IMG/VR virus record: IMGVR_UViG_3300048921_000246
Coordinates: 1-21,876 of that record
Length of the DNA stretch: 21,876 bases
DNA from: a virus
Reading direction: 5' to 3' (one strand)
The notes under the pieces: model-generated
Database searches by the model: none
The model's input: the letters and a program-made list of their open reading frames with translations, nothing else
What the model was told of the DNA's origin: nothing
Made by a program: the position numbers and the translations under genes
In this document: positions 1-13,989 of the stretch, piece by piece
How the letters are laid out: every line of letters begins with the position of its first letter
Numbering within the stretch: the first letter of the stretch is position 1

Positions 1-1390
1 CCACCACGGCATCAGCGGGAATCTCCGCCTCGATAAGTGCGTCGAGGATCTGCCCCACACCGGAGGGGTCAATGCCTATCTTGTCGAGAAGCTCGGCGGT
101 GTGGATGCGGCTGACGTACTCCGCCACCTCTTCTGTGTCCTGCCCTACACGCTTCACAATGGTCAGGTCACCGGCTTTCACAAAGTCGTTAAACCGTGAT
201 TCCTCGCTTTTACGGCGCCGGATTGCTATTTCATGTGCCCAGGCATGACACCAGCAGAGCCACTCACGCGTCTCAGCATCGCGCCCGACAGCACTGAATC
301 CCAGCAGGTCATCAAGCCCGCCGCCGTCAATACCGACCGAGATCACTTCCGCGCGCTGCAGCAAATCGTTAAAACTTACCCGCCGCGCCTGCTGCTCCCA
401 GAAATCGACGCCCGCCCAGCGGTCGCTGCGCAGGTTGAGACCGATTTCGATGTTGAGGTGTTTCGCCAGAAACTGCTGTAGCGTGCCGTCAGTTTTCGCC
501 TGGTTCTTTCGCAGATTATCGGCAATCCACTCCGGACTGACGGAAAGGCCGATGTTCGGGTTGGTGATATAGAAGTTTTCAGGCTGAAGATAAGCCTTGG
601 TCTGGATCATGCTGTCCGGGAATTCGTAGAGGATCCCCAGCGTTTTCGGATCGCTGATTTTGCCGTCGCGCACATCGCGCCAGTAATCGAGACGCTCCTT
701 AAACACGCCCGCTGGAGGTTCATCACTCTGCGTGGTGAGGTAAATCACCCAGCCTTCATTGCGCGATACCTGTCCGCCGAGAGCCTCCATAAACATCGCT
801 TCTGCGTTGGCGCGTTTGCCGAAAAGCCAGAGTTCGTCGACGAGGATACGCCCTGACTTTTTCCCGGAGACCGTGTCGGTATCAGCGGCCACCACTTTCA
901 GGGTGTTTCGCGTGACCCGGTGGGTGATGGTGCGGATATGATCCTGAATCTGGAACATATCTGTCAGTTCTTCATCCGCGCGGATCATGCCGGCGGCAGG
1001 TTTGAAGCTGTTGTCGGCCACCTCTTTTGTCGGCGCCAGAATGAGATGCTCCTCATCCTCACGCCAGCAGAGAATGAGCGCGGTCAGCATAATGCCGGCG
1101 GCAATCGTCGACTTGGTGTTCTTCTTCGATATCAGCAGACCGTATTCACGGATCAGCTGGTTACCTGTCTCGGCGTCGTACCCGCCGAAGATGACTTTCA
1201 CAAAGTCGAACACCCACGCCTCGGAGCACTCACCGAACGTGGACTTGCCGGGGAGGTCTGAAACACGGAGTTCGCGGAATATGCTCAGCGCCTGTTCAGC
1301 CTGGTCAGCGAATATCGGCGGCGGAATGATGGACTCGCCGTCGATGAGGCGGTTTTCCCAGTCGGTGCAGGCCGTGAACCACTGCGCCAT
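1..1390 (-). CDS. terL: Terminase large subunit, C-terminus cut by window edge
   Basis: Open from an ATG at 1390 to the left window edge (463 codons, no stop). This is the ATPase/nuclease motor that packages DNA into the prohead. The N-terminal third has a terminase-type Walker A variant in the stretch LLISKKNTKST, where SxKNxKS replaces the textbook GxGKT, as in HK97-type TerL. A Walker B follows (ILVDELW). The later segment SVGIDGGGLDDLLGFSAVG looks like the first acidic strand of the RNaseH-like nuclease domain. The gene begins 3 bases after the small-subunit stop, so the two should be translationally coupled. Family assignment (HK97-like TerL, Terminase_1) comes from motif recognition. 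The last part of the nuclease domain lies outside the window. Confidence 0.93.
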   Translation of the reverse strand, partial: MAQWFTACTDWENRLIDGESIIPPPIFADQAEQALSIFRELRVSDLPGKSTFGECSEAWVFDFVKVIFGGYDAETGNQLIREYGLLISKKNTKSTIAAGIMLTALILCWREDEEHLILAPTKEVADNSFKPAAGMIRADEELTDMFQIQDHIRTITHRVTRNTLKVVAADTDTVSGKKSGRILVDELWLFGKRANAEAMFMEALGGQVSRNEGWVIYLTTQSDEPPAGVFKERLDYWRDVRDGKISDPKTLGILYEFPDSMIQTKAYLQPENFYITNPNIGLSVSPEWIADNLRKNQAKTDGTLQQFLAKHLNIEIGLNLRSDRWAGVDFWEQQARRVSFNDLLQRAEVISVGIDGGGLDDLLGFSAVGRDAETREWLCWCHAWAHEIAIRRRKSEESRFNDFVKAGDLTIVKRVGQDTEEVAEYVSRIHTAELLDKIGIDPSGVGQILDALIEAEIPADAVV

Positions 1391-1393
1391 GGA

Positions 1394-1894
1394 TTACCCC
1401 TCTTTGTTGTTAACCACCAGCTTTGGCGGCGCCATGGATCCGAACTTGCTCGCGCCAGCGGCCACTTTCGCTGCAGCGTTGCGCGCCTCTTTTTTGCCGG
1501 TCTCCCCTTTTTTGGGGTGAACGTAAGGCAGCATAGCCTTTGCCGCATCCTTCCGGGTGTCGATGTCTTCAGTGGAGTCGTTCATCACTGCCATCAGAAA
1601 TTTGAGCGGATCGTCATACTGAGCAGCCGCTGGCGGCACTTCTGGCTGAGGGATTTTTTCCGGGGTGTTTACCGCTGGGGTATAAACATTTTTCCGGTAC
1701 TCCGGCACCTCATCCACGGTGACGGTTTCTTGCTTTTTACGGGCAATGAAAGCGATGACTTCCGGGTCTTTTGCAAGCTGCGACCCCTTTGACCGCGCGG
1801 ATTTCTCCGAGTAGCCCGCCTTTACTGCCGCATCTTTCTGAGACATGCCGGACATCAGCGCCACCGCGAATTTTCGCTTTTGCGCTGTTAACAT
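1394..1894 (-). CDS. terS: Terminase small subunit
   Basis: A 166-aa protein whose first 45 residues match the Terminase_2 small-subunit helix-turn-helix (QKRKFAVALMSGMSQKDAA, then KAGYSEKSARSKGSQLAKDP). This domain recognises phage DNA at the packaging site and delivers it to TerL. The rest is a Pro/Ala-rich linker followed by a charged C-terminal segment, as expected for the oligomerisation and TerL-contact part. The ATG at 1894 has a good upstream GGAGGG ribosome site. The gene sits directly before terL. The 176 bases upstream hold the likely cos region and two Fur-box-like palindromes. Confidence 0.9.
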   Translation of the reverse strand: MLTAQKRKFAVALMSGMSQKDAAVKAGYSEKSARSKGSQLAKDPEVIAFIARKKQETVTVDEVPEYRKNVYTPAVNTPEKIPQPEVPPAAAQYDDPLKFLMAVMNDSTEDIDTRKDAAKAMLPYVHPKKGETGKKEARNAAAKVAAGASKFGSMAPPKLVVNNKEG

Positions 1895-1988
1895 GTTTAT
1901 ACCCTCCAGAAGGGGATTTTTTCTGTGCGTGAGGGAGGGGGCGGTGTACAGGGTGATCGGCCTTTTTTTTGAGCCCTCCCCCCCCGGT

Positions 1989-2007
1989 AATGAGAATTAT
2001 TATCATT
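1989..2007. promoter_or_regulatory. Fur-box-like palindrome 1
   Basis: AATGAGAATTATTATCATT differs at one base from the Fur 7-1-7 consensus AATGATAATnATTATCATT. It covers the -10 (GATAAT, minus strand, 1999-2004) of a candidate promoter facing terS. The match is seen directly; Fur binding is inferred. An alternative is a terminase-binding repeat (cosB-like). Confidence 0.45.
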
Positions 2008-2026
2008 ACAGATGAAATAGTTACAA
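1999..2026 (-). promoter_or_regulatory. Candidate sigma70 promoter upstream of terS
   Basis: On the minus strand TTGTAA (2026-2021) and GATAAT (2004-1999) are separated by 16 bases, giving 4/6 and 5/6 matches to the -35 and -10. It would read toward terS about 100 bases away. Late genes normally rely on the Q-dependent promoter, so a local promoter here would be unusual. The -10 is inside palindrome 1. Confidence 0.3.
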
Positions 2027-2047
2027 ATGCAACTAATTTAGCAATTA

Positions 2048-2066
2048 AATGATAATCATTTTCATT
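2048..2066. promoter_or_regulatory. Fur-box-like palindrome 2
   Basis: AATGATAATCATTTTCATT has one mismatch to the Fur consensus AATGATAATnATTATCATT and matches palindrome 1 at 16 of 19 positions. It ends 4 bases before the HNH stop codon (2071) and lies upstream of the candidate terS promoter. Confidence 0.45.
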
Positions 2067-2070
2067 TAAA

Positions 2071-2439
2071 TCAAAATATGACCGTTCCCTGCCCGTCAGC
2101 GCCTTCCGGCACGGCATGTTTCAGGGCTTCATCATCCGGACCGGCCGTGGCTGCTTCGCGCGCTGATTTTCCGGCGTGGCATTCCTTACAGAGCGTCCAG
2201 AGGTTGCGCTCAGAGTTGTCGCCGCCGAACTGCAGCGCAATGCGGTGGTCAAGCTCACTCTCATGCAGATCAACAGCGCGTGAGCACATACAGCAATGTC
2301 CGCCATCGCGTACCCACAGCCGGCGCTTAAGCCCCACACGCACACTGCCACTGATACGCCGCTGCTCACCGTAAACGGGTTTGATGCGTCGGGTGTCCAT
2401 GGCCTTAAGCCGTGGTTTCAGGGTCGTTAGCTTAGCCAT
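2071..2439 (-). CDS. HNH endonuclease (terminase-associated)
   Basis: A 122-aa HNH nuclease with CxxC pairs and the core LDHRIALQFGGDNSERNLWT followed by CKECHAGKS: a DH, an N and a CxxCH in the usual HNH order. In HK97-like phages an HNH protein next to cos works with terminase during specific cos cleavage and packaging. The start was set at the ATG at 2439, because GGAGG lies 4 bases upstream on the minus strand; the reading frame stays open further upstream but that part overlaps the glycosyltransferase gene. It overlaps the end of that gene by 8 bases, so they share one transcript. Confidence 0.88.
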   Translation of the reverse strand: MAKLTTLKPRLKAMDTRRIKPVYGEQRRISGSVRVGLKRRLWVRDGGHCCMCSRAVDLHESELDHRIALQFGGDNSERNLWTLCKECHAGKSAREAATAGPDDEALKHAVPEGADGQGTVIF

Positions 2440-3016
2440 GTAACCTCCATGCCCGTCGCCGCTCGTGGCGGGGCTGACGATCGGGATGCTTCTCAACGGG
2501 ATCACCGTCAGCATGATCCACCAGTGAGCAGCAGGGATAGATAACCGGGCCGCCGCAGGCATCGCCCACGGCGAAGTCAGCAGGCTTACCCGCGTCCCAT
2601 CGTGACAGCAGGTCAGGCAACAGTGCCGGCGGAACGCTGTAGCAGACAGCATGCATGAGACGCTGCATAGTGATGTGGTCGGCACGGATGCGATCAGCTG
2701 CAATGAGCCTGGTCGCTATCTCAAGCTGGTACTGCGGCGGGCGGCCGGTGCCAAGGTAGAACGAGCACAGATGGTCAGGAAAGCAGTCCAGCCAGTCAGC
2801 AACCTTTTCCGCAAACTCTGCAACCGGCATCGCGTCGTCTTCCAGCACGACAACCCGACAGGATTGTCCTTCTGCCCACTCAAGTGCACGGCGATGATTG
2901 AAGTTGGCACCCCTGTCGTGCTCGTCAACCAGCAGGTGAGCGCCAAGAGAGTCAGCAAGCCTTTCGGCCTGTTCTCGCCGCGCATAGTGCGCGACCACCA
3001 CATACTTAATTTCCAT
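2432..3016 (-). CDS. Small glycosyltransferase-like protein
   Basis: A 194-aa protein with the layout of a compact GT-A fold nucleotide-sugar transferase. It starts with a beta strand (KYVVVAHYARREQAERLA), has NHRRALEWA around residues 40-48 and an acidic metal-binding type motif LEDDAMPV around 58-65. These resemble family-25 (LPS-type) transferases. The C-terminus is rich in His/Arg. It would transfer a sugar to an unknown acceptor: phage DNA, virion protein or host surface. The ATG at 3016 overlaps the preceding small gene by 11 bases. The family level is inferred; the acidic motif is seen. Confidence 0.6.
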   Translation of the reverse strand: MEIKYVVVAHYARREQAERLADSLGAHLLVDEHDRGANFNHRRALEWAEGQSCRVVVLEDDAMPVAEFAEKVADWLDCFPDHLCSFYLGTGRPPQYQLEIATRLIAADRIRADHITMQRLMHAVCYSVPPALLPDLLSRWDAGKPADFAVGDACGGPVIYPCCSLVDHADGDPVEKHPDRQPRHERRRAWRLHG

Positions 3017-3189: not shown

Positions 3190-4650
3190 TCACTTGTGCT
3201 TCCAAAAGGCGCACTCCTTACCAATGCCGTCAGATTTGAAAATGGTATGAATTTGCGGCCCGGTCACGATGCGATCGCCAAAGCGTTTAGCCACAATGCC
3301 AAAGGCCAGCATATCGCCAACCGCTGCCGGTGCTTTCTCTGTGTTCCAGAAGCGGTGACACTCCAGCAGGTAATACAGCCGCACTATGCCGTGCGCAAAG
3401 TTCATCACGTCAGCGCGCAGCCCGCCAAGTAATCCGGCATTCAGCATCACATCGTCGCGATACTCATCGAGGAAGTCCTGATAAATGCGTTCCGGGTGGT
3501 GCTGGCGTGCCCACGCATCGGCATATGTCTTTGGTTCAGATCCGACATACACCTTGCCCGGCACCATATCTGCCCATGGCTCACGGAGCATTTCGACATC
3601 GGTACCGTCAGTGCACCAGACGAGATGATACTCAGGGTGATCGCGAAGGTGCTGCCAGATATGCAGCCAGCGCCGGAAGTAGCAGTTCATCTTCACAGCG
3701 GGAACGCGCCACAGTTCGACATCAGCCGGCGCGGTCGCCAGCTCATCAGCCAGCACAACCCGGCTGCAGCCGCGCAACGAACCAGCCCACTTTGCCAGCA
3801 GGTCGGGTGAGGCTGTCATTCTGGTACCGCGCTGCGGGTCAGGCTCGCTGGTCAGCAGCGTGGTGATCACAACATTACGTTGCAGCCGATAAGGGGCATA
3901 GCCGGTATAACCGGTGTCCCGCCGCGCGTTGTGAATTTTGACGTTGTGCTTTACCTGCTCCTCACGGTCCGGACGTGGTACTGAGCGTTCCACCAGCTCA
4001 TGCTCATCGAGGGAGTGAATCAGCTTTTCAGAGCCGACCACATCAGCGAACGCCCACGACGTCAGCCCGGCATTGTGGATGCGCAGAGCGAGATCGCTGT
4101 GCTCATACATGCCGCGACCGTAAATCGGGTCGAAGCCGCCGACACGCTCAATCGCGCTGCGGTGGTAATAGAGCATGACGCCGCGCTGGCCGGTGTAGGC
4201 GATATGCTGATCGTCGCGATACAGCACCGCGATATCGTTAAGCTTGCGCGCACCAGCCAGATCGAGAAACTGATAAGCCAGATGTGGCTCGGGTGATTCG
4301 ATGTAAGACAGCCACCAGCCATCAGCAATCGGCCATGCGTCATCGTCCCACAGGAAAAGGTGCTCACACCCGGCATCCATAAGCGCGGTAAGACAGGCGT
4401 TCTTCGAGGCCACAATGCCCAGCGATTTATCGTGTCGGATCAGGTTAACGCTGGCAGGTACAACCGCTGGTGGCTGTGAACCGTCATCAACGACAACCAC
4501 CAGCGCGCCGACAGGTAAATGGTGGAAATGATGCTCCAGCGCCTTGCTTAGAACAGCAGCGCGATTGTGCGTAGAGATGGCTATGCCGATACGGCTGGTG
4601 GCCGGAGTGCAGACAGGCGCGTACGGGACACCATCGATAGTGACCTGCAT
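3190..4650 (-). CDS. Two-domain glycosyltransferase (GT2 N-terminal domain)
   Basis: A 486-aa protein. Residues about 20-240 form a family-2 GT-A domain: RIGIAISTHNRAAVLSKAL, the nucleotide-binding DDG at 55-57, and the metal-binding LFLWDDDAWP with DDD at 102-104. A GGFDPIYGRGMYEHSDLALR stretch sits in the acceptor-site region. Residues about 260-486 look like a second nucleotide-sugar transferase-type domain with LVWCTDGTDVEM, where the DxTD could be its metal site. The two-domain build suggests a processive or dual-specificity enzyme. A ribosome site (AAGGAAG) precedes the ATG at 4650. It lies in the late region beside terminase genes, so virion or phage-DNA glycosylation is more likely than a classic Gtr serotype-conversion module; no gtrA/gtrB-like genes are present. 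Confidence 0.75.
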   Translation of the reverse strand: MQVTIDGVPYAPVCTPATSRIGIAISTHNRAAVLSKALEHHFHHLPVGALVVVVDDGSQPPAVVPASVNLIRHDKSLGIVASKNACLTALMDAGCEHLFLWDDDAWPIADGWWLSYIESPEPHLAYQFLDLAGARKLNDIAVLYRDDQHIAYTGQRGVMLYYHRSAIERVGGFDPIYGRGMYEHSDLALRIHNAGLTSWAFADVVGSEKLIHSLDEHELVERSVPRPDREEQVKHNVKIHNARRDTGYTGYAPYRLQRNVVITTLLTSEPDPQRGTRMTASPDLLAKWAGSLRGCSRVVLADELATAPADVELWRVPAVKMNCYFRRWLHIWQHLRDHPEYHLVWCTDGTDVEMLREPWADMVPGKVYVGSEPKTYADAWARQHHPERIYQDFLDEYRDDVMLNAGLLGGLRADVMNFAHGIVRLYYLLECHRFWNTEKAPAAVGDMLAFGIVAKRFGDRIVTGPQIHTIFKSDGIGKECAFWKHK

Positions 4651-7564: not shown

Positions 7565-7636
7565 ATAATATAACCACAAAATATCGAGTTAAAAGCTCAA
7601 AAAAAATAAAATCACATATACCCTATGGAGATCAAA

Positions 7637-8503
7637 ATGAAGTTGATTCCAAAAGTCGATTCAGTAACATCTTTCCTTTCTATTGTGTATAACAAAACAA
7701 CACCTAAACATATCAGGTGCTACAGAGGACAGTCATCTAATCATTGGACATTAAAACCCTCAGTGATGAGAGGTCTACGTAAAAATGCCGAAAAAGAAAT
7801 TTTTAGTGAATTGATGACAGAAGCACCAGGAGAATTTAATGGAGATCGCTCTATGTTCGATAAACTTGTTCGTGCCCAACATTATGGGTTACCTACAAGA
7901 CTGCTCGATGTTTCCTTAAACCCACTAGTTGCACTTTATTTTGCTTGTGATGAGCAAAGTCATCATGACAAGGATGGAGTTGTGCATTTATTGGATTTTG
8001 CAGAAGAAAGAGTTAGATTTGCTGATAGTGATACGGTAAGCCTTATATGTAATCTGGCCAGACTATCCGATTCTGAAAAAGATGAAATAGGTCAGTTCAT
8101 TAAAATAAAAAAACCTTCAACAGAAATAGAAAAGTTTGAATTTAGAGAACTGAATGCAATGAAGCGTTTGACTCAATTTATACGCGTAGAAAAACCCTAT
8201 TTCACAGATACTGCAAATCATAGCGACTTATTAAAATATTACTTTGTTCATCCAGCCAAAAACAATCGCAGGGTTGTAGCCCAATCAGGTGCATTCGTAG
8301 CCGCTGGACTCCTTAAATATGAAAAGGCAGGAAGCAATGGAAAAGGCTTCGCATTAAGCAAAATAGTCATACCAGCAAGCTCTAAAGAGCTAATTCTGGA
8401 GCAACTAGACGTACTTAACATAAACTCCAGAACTATGTTCCCTGAGGTAGAGTTTGTATCTAGGTACATAAAGCGTAAATGGGAAATACCAAATAAATTA
8501 TAA
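7637..8503 (+). CDS. FRG-domain protein, likely lysogenic cargo (moron)
   Basis: A 288-aa protein with a clear FRG domain: CYRGQSSNHWTLKPSVMR (about 28-45), RAQHYGLPTRLLDVSLNPLVALYFA (about 79-103, conserved HYGLPTRLLD), and QSGAFVAAG in the second half. FRG proteins are of unknown biochemistry and are often found on prophages and near defence genes. The ATG at 7637 is preferred over 7625 because GGAG lies 7 bases before it. The gene is strongly AT-rich, points against every gene around it, and is inserted between the late promoter and the holin, with its own 3' stem-loop. The late transcript would be antisense to it. Role as antiphage or superinfection-exclusion factor is inferred from context. 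Confidence 0.85.
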   Translation: MKLIPKVDSVTSFLSIVYNKTTPKHIRCYRGQSSNHWTLKPSVMRGLRKNAEKEIFSELMTEAPGEFNGDRSMFDKLVRAQHYGLPTRLLDVSLNPLVALYFACDEQSHHDKDGVVHLLDFAEERVRFADSDTVSLICNLARLSDSEKDEIGQFIKIKKPSTEIEKFEFRELNAMKRLTQFIRVEKPYFTDTANHSDLLKYYFVHPAKNNRRVVAQSGAFVAAGLLKYEKAGSNGKGFALSKIVIPASSKELILEQLDVLNINSRTMFPEVEFVSRYIKRKWEIPNKL

Positions 8504-11534: not shown

Positions 11535-11924
11535 TTAAGCGGCTGCAACCGCTGTTGGTTCATACCTGGTGATCGAGATCTCCACCCTGCCGCCCTTCAC
11601 TGTCGGCCCCCACTCCACCAGCATCTTTTTCACCTGGCTGTCGTCCTCCCACACGCCTGCATGCGTCAGCGCATCAAAAAGCGCCTTGTTGTAGTTGTCG
11701 ATGTCCCGGCGGCGCGCGTCAGGCGGGAAAAGCAGGATTTCAACTGCTGCGGGCTCGGTCGACGGCTTCGGCAGGCGGTACAGCTGATCGAGGATTGCCT
11801 CACAGGCTGCGCTCTGGTATTTGCGGCCGTCGGCGCTGATGAGATGTCGCCCTTTCAGCGGCCCAGAATTAGGGGCGCGCCAGTAGCGATTTACGCTGGG
11901 AGGAAATGGCAGTGTGAGTTTCAT
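11535..11924 (-). CDS. rusA: RusA-type Holliday junction resolvase
   Basis: A 129-aa RusA-family endonuclease that cuts four-way DNA junctions made during phage recombination and before packaging. The start LTLPFPPSVNRYWR is diagnostic. The acidic metal site is visible: Asp74 and Asp76 in RRRDIDNYNKALFDAL, then Asp94/95 in GVWEDDSQV, with Lys80 nearby. The length is normal for the family. The ATG at 11924 overlaps the stop of the preceding gene (ATGA). Confidence 0.93.
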   Translation of the reverse strand: MKLTLPFPPSVNRYWRAPNSGPLKGRHLISADGRKYQSAACEAILDQLYRLPKPSTEPAAVEILLFPPDARRRDIDNYNKALFDALTHAGVWEDDSQVKKMLVEWGPTVKGGRVEISITRYEPTAVAAA

Positions 11925-12256: not shown

Positions 12257-13117
12257 TCAGAGAATTGCCACGATGTCAGCAGCGTTTTCCCGCGTGCTGC
12301 CTTTGCTGGAAATGGAGCGGCGGGCGCTGACGTGATGCAGCGTGAAGCCGTGCTGCTCGTAAAGCTCGATAATCCGTGGCGCCGCCGAGTTGCTGATCAC
12401 CACCCGCGCGCCGCGCTGATGTGCCGCAACACAGGATTCAACCAGCGCCACCTGGTCAGCCCATGCGAAACCGCCAGCGGAATAGTTCGTGAAACCCGCC
12501 GTGCCCGGCAGCGGCTCATAGGGCGGATCGCAGTAAACGACATCGCCCTCGCCCGCCAGCGACAGCGTGCGGCGGTAACCGGCATTCATGAAAACGCAGT
12601 TGGGCGCCACAGCAGCAAAAGCCACCAGCTCTTTATCCGGGAAATACGGACCAGTTTTTTTACCCCAGCCAACATTGAATTCGCCGGCGCGGTTGTATCG
12701 GATCAGGCCGTTGAAGCAGTGGCGGTTCAGGTACAGGAAAGCGGCGGCGCGCGCCGGTCCGGTCATCTGCTGCGCGTTGAATGCCTGGCGAACGGCGAAG
12801 AAACCAGGCTCGTCACCCATTTCGGCAAACAGCTGGCGCGCCAGCACCGTTACCTTCTCTGGCAATACGGCAAGCATCTGATAGAGGTTAATCAGATCCG
12901 GATTGGCATCTGCCAGCAGGAAGCTTTCATGCTTATCGGAGTTGAGGAACACTGAACCGCCGCCGACAAACGGCTCGATGAGCCGGGAGCCCGCCGGGAT
13001 AAGGCGATCCAGTTCAGGCATCAGCGAATATTTACCGCCAGCCCATTTCAGGAATGGACGCTGCCATGCGCGCGGCGCCGGTTCTGCCACTGGCAGTGCT
13101 GCTGCCGTATCAGCCAT
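12257..13117 (-). CDS. DNA adenine methylase (Dam, MT-D12 family)
   Basis: A 286-aa N6-adenine methyltransferase. SAM-binding motifs KWAGGK (about 24-29) and IEPFVGGGSVF (about 47-57) and the catalytic DPPY (197-200) are all present, in the alpha-type order. GATC is the likely target by similarity to Dam; other targets are possible. It sits where lambda has P, directly after the O-like gene: the replication gene stop overlaps two adjacent ATGs (13120 and 13117), either of which could start it. Methylation may protect phage DNA or time replication at the adjacent origin. Confidence 0.9.
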   Translation of the reverse strand: MADTAAALPVAEPAPRAWQRPFLKWAGGKYSLMPELDRLIPAGSRLIEPFVGGGSVFLNSDKHESFLLADANPDLINLYQMLAVLPEKVTVLARQLFAEMGDEPGFFAVRQAFNAQQMTGPARAAAFLYLNRHCFNGLIRYNRAGEFNVGWGKKTGPYFPDKELVAFAAVAPNCVFMNAGYRRTLSLAGEGDVVYCDPPYEPLPGTAGFTNYSAGGFAWADQVALVESCVAAHQRGARVVISNSAAPRIIELYEQHGFTLHHVSARRSISSKGSTRENAADIVAIL

Positions 13118-13989
13118 CATGAGCGGAACCCCGAGTTTTGCGGCAGCGAGTAATCGACATTCTGGAATGTCGCGCGGGAAGCTGTGCTGCTGATCCATTC
13201 GCCGTTGCGGCGCGCCGGGCGTCCTGCTTCGTTCCACTTCGTCGCGGCCTGCAGGTATCCAGGAAATTTGCTCGGCAGGAAAAGCGTGGTCGGGCGCAGG
13301 TACTCAGCCATCTGCAAATCGGCGCTCCACTTCTCGTTGGTGTAATCCACGACAAGCTTCAGCTCTTCAGCGCTGAACCCTTCACCCAGGCGAGCCCGGA
13401 TGTGTTCCAGCGACGTTTTCGAAACCTGGTACCGGGATCCGGTTTGCTGGTTCAGGTAAGTCAGAACCTGTTTAGCCTGGTCAGTAACCATCACCGCATC
13501 GTCGGGTTGCGCAGCAACCGGACAGAAAGGGTTTTGATTTTTATCTGATGGATCTTGTTTTGATTTTACTGACGGATCCCCCCCAGATTCTGACGGGTGA
13601 AAACCGCCGTTTTTGCCAGATTTCGACGCGTCAGATTTTGAGGCGTCAGAATTTGACCCGTCAGATTTTGAGGTGTCAGATTCTGACAGGTGAGAAAAGG
13701 CAGCGGCCTGAAGCTTTTGCACGTTGAGCTGATAGACGTTCGACGCGTTACGGTTGCCTTTGCGGCGCTGCTGACGGGAAAGCCAGCCATCCTGCTCAAG
13801 CTTGCCGATCGCCGTACGCACGGTGCTTTCACCCGCACCAAGCTGGCGGGCGATGGTCTCGATAGAAGGCCAGCACACGCCGTCGTCGTTGCTGTAGTCG
13901 GCCAGGCGCGCCATGATGGCAACGCTGGTCAGCTTCATGCCAGCTGCGGCACAAACGTCCCAGACATAGCCTTGTAATTTAGTGCTCAT
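13117..13989 (-). CDS. O-like replication initiator with internal origin
   Basis: A 290-aa protein. Residues 1-90 are a helix-turn-helix domain of the HTH_36 type (TSVAIMARLADYSNDDGVCW, then PSIETIARQLGAGESTVRTA). The middle (about 98-145) is a low-complexity Ser/Asp/Lys segment with SDxSKSD repeats, encoded by DNA iterons. The C-terminal 90 residues match the conserved phage replication C-terminal domain (VLTYLNQQTGSRYQ, then YLRPTTLFLPSKFPGYL). This is the lambda O plan: N-terminal DNA binding, origin in the middle of the gene, C-terminal contact with the helicase loader or helicase. No lambda P or DnaC-like gene follows. Confidence 0.85.
   Translation of the reverse strand: MSTKLQGYVWDVCAAAGMKLTSVAIMARLADYSNDDGVCWPSIETIARQLGAGESTVRTAIGKLEQDGWLSRQQRRKGNRNASNVYQLNVQKLQAAAFSHLSESDTSKSDGSNSDASKSDASKSGKNGGFHPSESGGDPSVKSKQDPSDKNQNPFCPVAAQPDDAVMVTDQAKQVLTYLNQQTGSRYQVSKTSLEHIRARLGEGFSAEELKLVVDYTNEKWSADLQMAEYLRPTTLFLPSKFPGYLQAATKWNEAGRPARRNGEWISSTASRATFQNVDYSLPQNSGFRS
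13582..13695. repeat. Iterons: probable phage replication origin
   Basis: Four 15-bp direct repeats, consensus gCGTCAGATTTTGAg, lie head to tail at 13628-13642, 13643-13657, 13658-13672 and 13673-13687, with a weaker copy at 13613-13627. A TTCTGACrGGTGA block flanks them on both sides (about 13589 and 13682). AT-rich DNA lies beyond (13529-13570). The repeats fall inside the initiator gene, as in lambda ori. Confidence 0.75.

Follow-up and report, generated by a model that had tools for sequence, protein, structure and literature searches.

The stretch of viral DNA analysed here (IMG/VR record IMGVR_UViG_3300048921_000246, 21,876 nt; hereafter, the window) opens with a packaging region in which the terminase genes and the gene for an HNH endonuclease flank an inferred cohesive-end site (Table 1). 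To place the cosN, the window was aligned with two relatives whose ends are mapped: Acinetobacter phage fEg-Aba01, with a 3′ cohesive end annotated as CGCCCCCCAT, and Burkholderia phage Bcep176, for which the ends of the record were used. The cut then falls at ACAC/CGCCCCCTCC/CTCACGCACAG, only about 39 bp from the start of terS. The locus has the make-up of an HNH-type (HK97-like) cos, with HNH, G-run, cosN and terS–terL in order and a 10-nt 3′ overhang inferred by alignment. Two palindromes resembling Fur boxes, R3 and R1, are located between the inferred cosN and HNH, about 46–123 bp from the cut, and the AT-rich arm of 80 bp sits in a GC-rich neighbourhood.

Table 1. Features of the packaging region, with positions in the window.
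Feature	Position	Strand	Sequence	Basis or remark
Terminase large subunit (PF03354)	2..1390	-		Pfam match; cut off by window end
Terminase small subunit TerS (PF03592)	1397..1894	-		Pfam match
A-tract block, conserved; probably the side of cos bound by TerS	1908..1933	-	CTCACGCACAGAAAAAATCCCCTTCT	Kept in relatives; HK97 analogy
Inferred cosN, 10-nt 3′ overhang	1934..1943	-	CGCCCCCTCC	Alignment to phage ends
G-run, possible counterpart of lambda cosQ	1974..1985	-	GGGGGGGGAGGG	Position
Fur-like palindrome R3, cos-proximal	1989..2007	.	AATGAGAATTATTATCATT	1 mismatch in 18; 26.6 bits; same position in relatives
Conserved middle element R2	2013..2033	-	GTTGCATTTGTAACTATTTCA (relatives, GTTTCATTTGAAATNATTTCA)	4 of 21 columns variable
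Fur-like palindrome R1, cos-distal	2048..2066	.	AATGATAATCATTTTCATT	1 mismatch in 18; 27.0 bits
HNH endonuclease (PF01844), 122 aa	2071..2439	-		Pfam match

On the terS side of the cut, the A-tract block (GCACAGAAAAAATCCCC) is kept in the window and its relatives, with or without palindromes; in HK97, TerS binds an A-tract at +15 to +29, also on the terS side (PMC11331095). A G-rich run is present in essentially all relatives inspected, whether palindromes are present or absent, and its position makes it a possible counterpart of lambda cosQ, which is needed for packaging termination (PMC4669245). Elsewhere in the window, two open frames (3190–4650 and 2432–3016) separate the lysis genes from HNH; one is weakly similar to family 2 glycosyltransferases (below the Pfam cut-off) and the other has no Pfam match. 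Position 7625–8503, between the lysis and early regions, encodes an FRG-domain protein (PF08867) of 292 aa that may serve an accessory or defence function, and 12257–13237 encodes a D12-class adenine DNA methyltransferase (PF02086).

The sequence-only reading had singled out R3 and R1 as near-consensus Fur boxes, and this description was borne out: each agrees with the 19-bp Fur consensus (AATGATAATNATTATCATT) at 17 of 18 positions, they lie 40 nt apart, and R1 begins 4 bp past the HNH stop codon. Allowing up to three mismatches, 100 dinucleotide shuffles of the window gave 0.01 consensus matches. We built a Fur weight matrix on nine promoter regions of MG1655 known to be Fur-controlled, which supplied 12 sites; the sites are the best consensus matches in promoters of our own choosing, which is a weakness of the matrix. 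Both palindromes reach operator-grade scores (Table 1) above those of all 12 classical E. coli operators (11.4–23.3 bits, leave-one-out); nowhere else does the window exceed 11.2 bits. R1 and R3 also share a conserved asymmetry, with their weak halves as mirror images. The same reading had R3 covering the −10 region of a plausible promoter facing terS. A match overlapping R3 does exist (TTGTAA-16-GATAAT, minus strand 2026–1999), but it is weak and single, against 0.5 expected in shuffles; a strong terS promoter at R3 was rejected because the number of matches is not above that in shuffles.

Between R1 and R3 lies a further element, R2, overlooked at first reading, which is conserved yet poor as a Fur site. 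The closest clade supplies 13 distinct sequences, among which variable columns amount to 2 of 19 in R1, 5 of 19 in R3 and 4 of 21 in R2, and to 14 of 19 in the two linkers. R2 (of the TTTCATTTGAAATNATTTCA type) also occurs in HK97 and mEp235, but no copy was seen in cos of the lambda type. More distant relatives have the array whole, cut down to two sites or one, or not at all, and in the last case the HNH reading frame usually stops directly at the G-run. Given that TerS is 98–99% identical between carriers and non-carriers of the sites (L069/L064, L086/L083 and L079/L078), this TerS does not need the dyads. The Fur site is absent in several terS relatives from hosts expected to have Fur (Moraxella, Acinetobacter and Vibrio examples), and the many relatives that do without the sites argue against an essential role. 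A small membrane-type ORF with ...QPTWMHCREMRNRYGTP... was seen between HNH and cos in two loci, one with dyads (L069) and one with none (L051).

Recurrence was assessed in three sets of phages gathered blind to the motif, that is, by the TerS family of the window, by homology to P27-like TerS (PF05119) and by lambda-type cosN/cosB sequence, counting one per 80%-identity cluster and taking 15 bits or more as a strong site. A strong Fur site was present in 55% of 31 clusters of the window TerS family, 74% of 23 clusters with P27-like TerS and 56% of 48 clusters with lambda-type cosN; the HK97 clade (18 clusters) reached 17% at 15 bits and 72% at 8 bits. The corresponding null rates were 0.2–0.7% when the window, P27-like and HK97 sets were dinucleotide-shuffled (0.5–0.7% for the first two) and 1.8% in random 110-bp stretches of lambda-type loci. 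None of 300 column-permuted palindromic matrices matched the rates observed in the window, P27-like and lambda-type sets (54–73% in the clustering of that comparison), and because such permuted palindromes are not enriched, the letters of the Fur box themselves matter. Phages with P27-like TerS show the same order of elements, with sites as good as AATGATAATCATTATCATT, and R2 is present in HK97 relatives together with a weaker R3; the motif accompanies PF03592, PF05119 and HK97-type TerS and also lies in lambda-type cos. Conservation restricted to phages sharing this TerS, which the sequence-only reading would have counted against Fur if TerS also protected the repeats, is not what we found, as unrelated TerS share the sites and near-identical ones occur without them.

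A pattern scan of IMG/VR returned at least 120 matches for a Fur-like palindrome before a G-run and 3 for a scrambled palindrome. Placing the G-run on the wrong side of the palindrome returned 103, so that raw pattern counts mislead, and it is the link to TerL and the unbiased sets that carry the argument. With obvious window-family loci removed beforehand, 13 of 50 records with a correctly placed G-run contained a PF03354 TerL, versus 0 of 50 with the G-run on the wrong side; with window-family loci included, 26 of 118 places had a TerL on the same strand 346–1121 bp downstream, versus 1 of 127. Five other loci (L142, L156, L157, L166 and L183) contain several closely spaced TGAGAATNATTCTCA-like palindromes in phages whose records yielded no PF03354 terminase, where the motif may have a different use.

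The spacing counts, which took in sites reaching 12 bits, place the end of the core most often 3–9 bp before the G-run and, in lambda-type cos, most often 4–9 bp before cosQ (GGGTCCT), the larger distances being mainly those of an outer site or of a G-run misplaced by the search pattern. From core to terS start, the distance is mostly 96–102, 106–123 and 134–147 bp in three lineages (about 97 bp for the nearer core of the window) and about 227 bp at nohA; it differs about twofold across lineages, whereas the distance to the G-run or cosQ does not. The site is thus tied to the G-run or cosQ rather than to the gene, so that acting on a terS promoter is just one among several roles that it could have.

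The right end of lambda carries GATGATAATCATTATCACTTTACGGGTCCTTTCC... (21.5 bits on the Fur matrix), with TGATAATCATTATCA immediately before cosQ, and an identical stretch precedes nohA, a gene of the Qin prophage in E. coli K-12 MG1655; at both places, GATGATAATCATTATCACT stands directly before GGGTCCT. Some 80 bp beyond the Fur site, the lambda right end (L477) and the nohA upstream region (L478) also contain TTGATGCAGATCAA, which matches the FNR consensus perfectly. An FNR ChIP peak has been reported at nohA (PMC3688515). This terS homologue is entered among the Fur-repressed operons in Table 4 of Myers et al., citing Chen 2007 and Vassinova & Kozyrev 2000 (PMC3688515), and phage DNA packaging has been named among Fur-repressed functions (PMC3089636); with these entries, the earlier suggestion that placing packaging genes under iron control would be a novelty does not hold in that form. 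The link between Fur and a terS homologue is already known, and it is the cosQ-linked pattern across phages for which we found no earlier record: we found no literature connecting Fur to cosQ or recording this pattern, and nothing direct on Fur with terminase or on Fur ChIP in prophages, and the open Fur ChIP papers examined say nothing of terminase sites in their main text.

Among known systems, nohA and the lambda right end resemble the window in having a Fur palindrome on the same cos arm, upstream of a terS gene, but there a single site directly precedes cosQ GGGTCCT at about 227 bp from the terS start, whereas the window has an HNH-type cos with a G-run and two sites plus R2 at about 97 bp. 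HK97, mEp235 and D3 have the order of the window (HNH, dyads, G-run, cosN, A-tract and terS) with TerS of other families; mEp235 has two strong sites, D3 has one, and HK97 has R2 and a weaker R3 (13.4 bits, a poorer Fur match than in the window). Classical Fur operators (for example, fepA–fes, fhuF, cirA and sufA) belong to the same class of palindrome, but score lower than the window sites and lie at promoters of host iron genes rather than in a phage cos. The use of host IHF by lambda at cosB, at site I1 (PMC4669245), is a parallel in function for a packaging role only, as I1 binds a different protein and lies on the terS side of cosN, unlike the dyads of the window.

Judging from the quality of the sites, their return in several lineages with unrelated terminases and a spacing tied to the G-run or cosQ, we think it probable that R1 and R3 are operators for the host Fur and, at the same time, part of a recurrent but optional cos module. 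Against this weigh the phages that lack the module despite near-identical TerS, the low share of strong sites in the HK97 clade, the choice of sites for the matrix, and R2, which is as conserved as the palindromes but does not resemble a Fur site. Their identity as Fur boxes is nevertheless well supported by the weight matrix, by how the motif recurs alongside unrelated terminases and by what is reported for nohA; binding of Fur is a likely prediction from these sequences, and would be the simplest account of a letter-specific motif common to phages with unrelated small terminases. Such a module would consist of one to three dyads on the cos arm that the packaging motor meets first, the nearest usually ending 3–9 bp before cosQ (in lambda) or before the G-run in the same place (in HNH-type cos). 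In iron-rich cells, iron-loaded Fur dimers may sit on this arm, with the consequence either that transcription into terS–terL would be repressed, as reported for nohA, or that the approaching motor, which would reach the dyads just ahead of the G-run or cosQ, would be slowed shortly before it meets the signal for termination. For HK97, a model has been put forward in which TerS forms a roadblock to the large terminase as it arrives (PMC10359639). We slightly prefer a role in cos over repression, because the spacing follows the G-run or cosQ and not the gene.

Repression of terS–terL, in which a local promoter or read-through would be silenced in the lysogen when iron is plentiful, is a sub-case of this explanation that we consider possible if somewhat doubtful: nohA, with its lambda-type cos upstream, is tabulated as Fur-repressed, and a weak promoter match overlaps R3, yet that match does not exceed the shuffles and the distance to terS varies about twofold where that to the G-run or cosQ does not. 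That the dyads are bound by the packaging apparatus of the phage (TerS, HNH or TerL) and merely look like Fur boxes seems to us unlikely. The sequence-only reading had raised this in the form of terminase-binding repeats in cos, and the location was right: the dyads lie within cos at a fixed place beside the G-run or cosQ, R2 is conserved along with them, and R1, R2 and R3 are carried as a set in HNH-type cos. As the binder, TerS fared poorly. A TerS-binding R element (cosB) belongs between cosN and terS, and the sites are on the HNH side, opposite the TerS site of HK97; neither their presence nor their sequence tracks the type of TerS, and the motif is shared across PF03592, PF05119, HK97-type TerS and lambda-type cos. 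TerS-binding repeats as the main reading were rejected on the HK97 site, the unrelated TerS families and the near-identical TerS that occur without sites, and the lack of enrichment of column-permuted palindromes, which makes the Fur letters matter, also speaks against any packaging protein as the binder.

Fur boxes present in many copies are known to titrate the protein, which is the basis of the Fur titration assay; the assay paper is cited in PMC3089636. The phage might exploit this, with replicated genomes carrying one to three boxes sequestering Fur and derepressing host iron uptake, but a decoy requires no fixed place and the sites are tied to the G-run or cosQ, and we hold this to be very unlikely. 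Least credible to us is a purely structural palindrome, that is, an AT-rich cruciform or bend that serves no dedicated host protein. The AT-rich arm amid GC-rich sequence and a RusA resolvase encoded at 11535–11924 would suit it, but scrambled palindromes of the same composition are rare before a G-run (3 versus at least 120) and permuted matrices are not enriched, and a generic palindrome or cruciform was rejected on these two results.

Fur operators within an optional cos module are the explanation that we favour, and with it nohA, long listed as an oddity of the E. coli Fur regulon, finds a setting, as the Fur site there falls in the remnant of a lambda-type cos. A bolder proposal, which we rate as rather improbable, is that Fur is a general accessory of cos and that iron-loaded Fur before cosQ slows or gates the motor, so that termination would be iron-dependent in lambda and many unrelated phages. 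Even short of this, a strong Fur box beside cosQ or its counterpart in phages with unrelated terminases, lambda included, would link one of the most thoroughly studied systems of viral packaging to host iron metabolism, and the iron status of the host might influence phage packaging or the expression of terminase.
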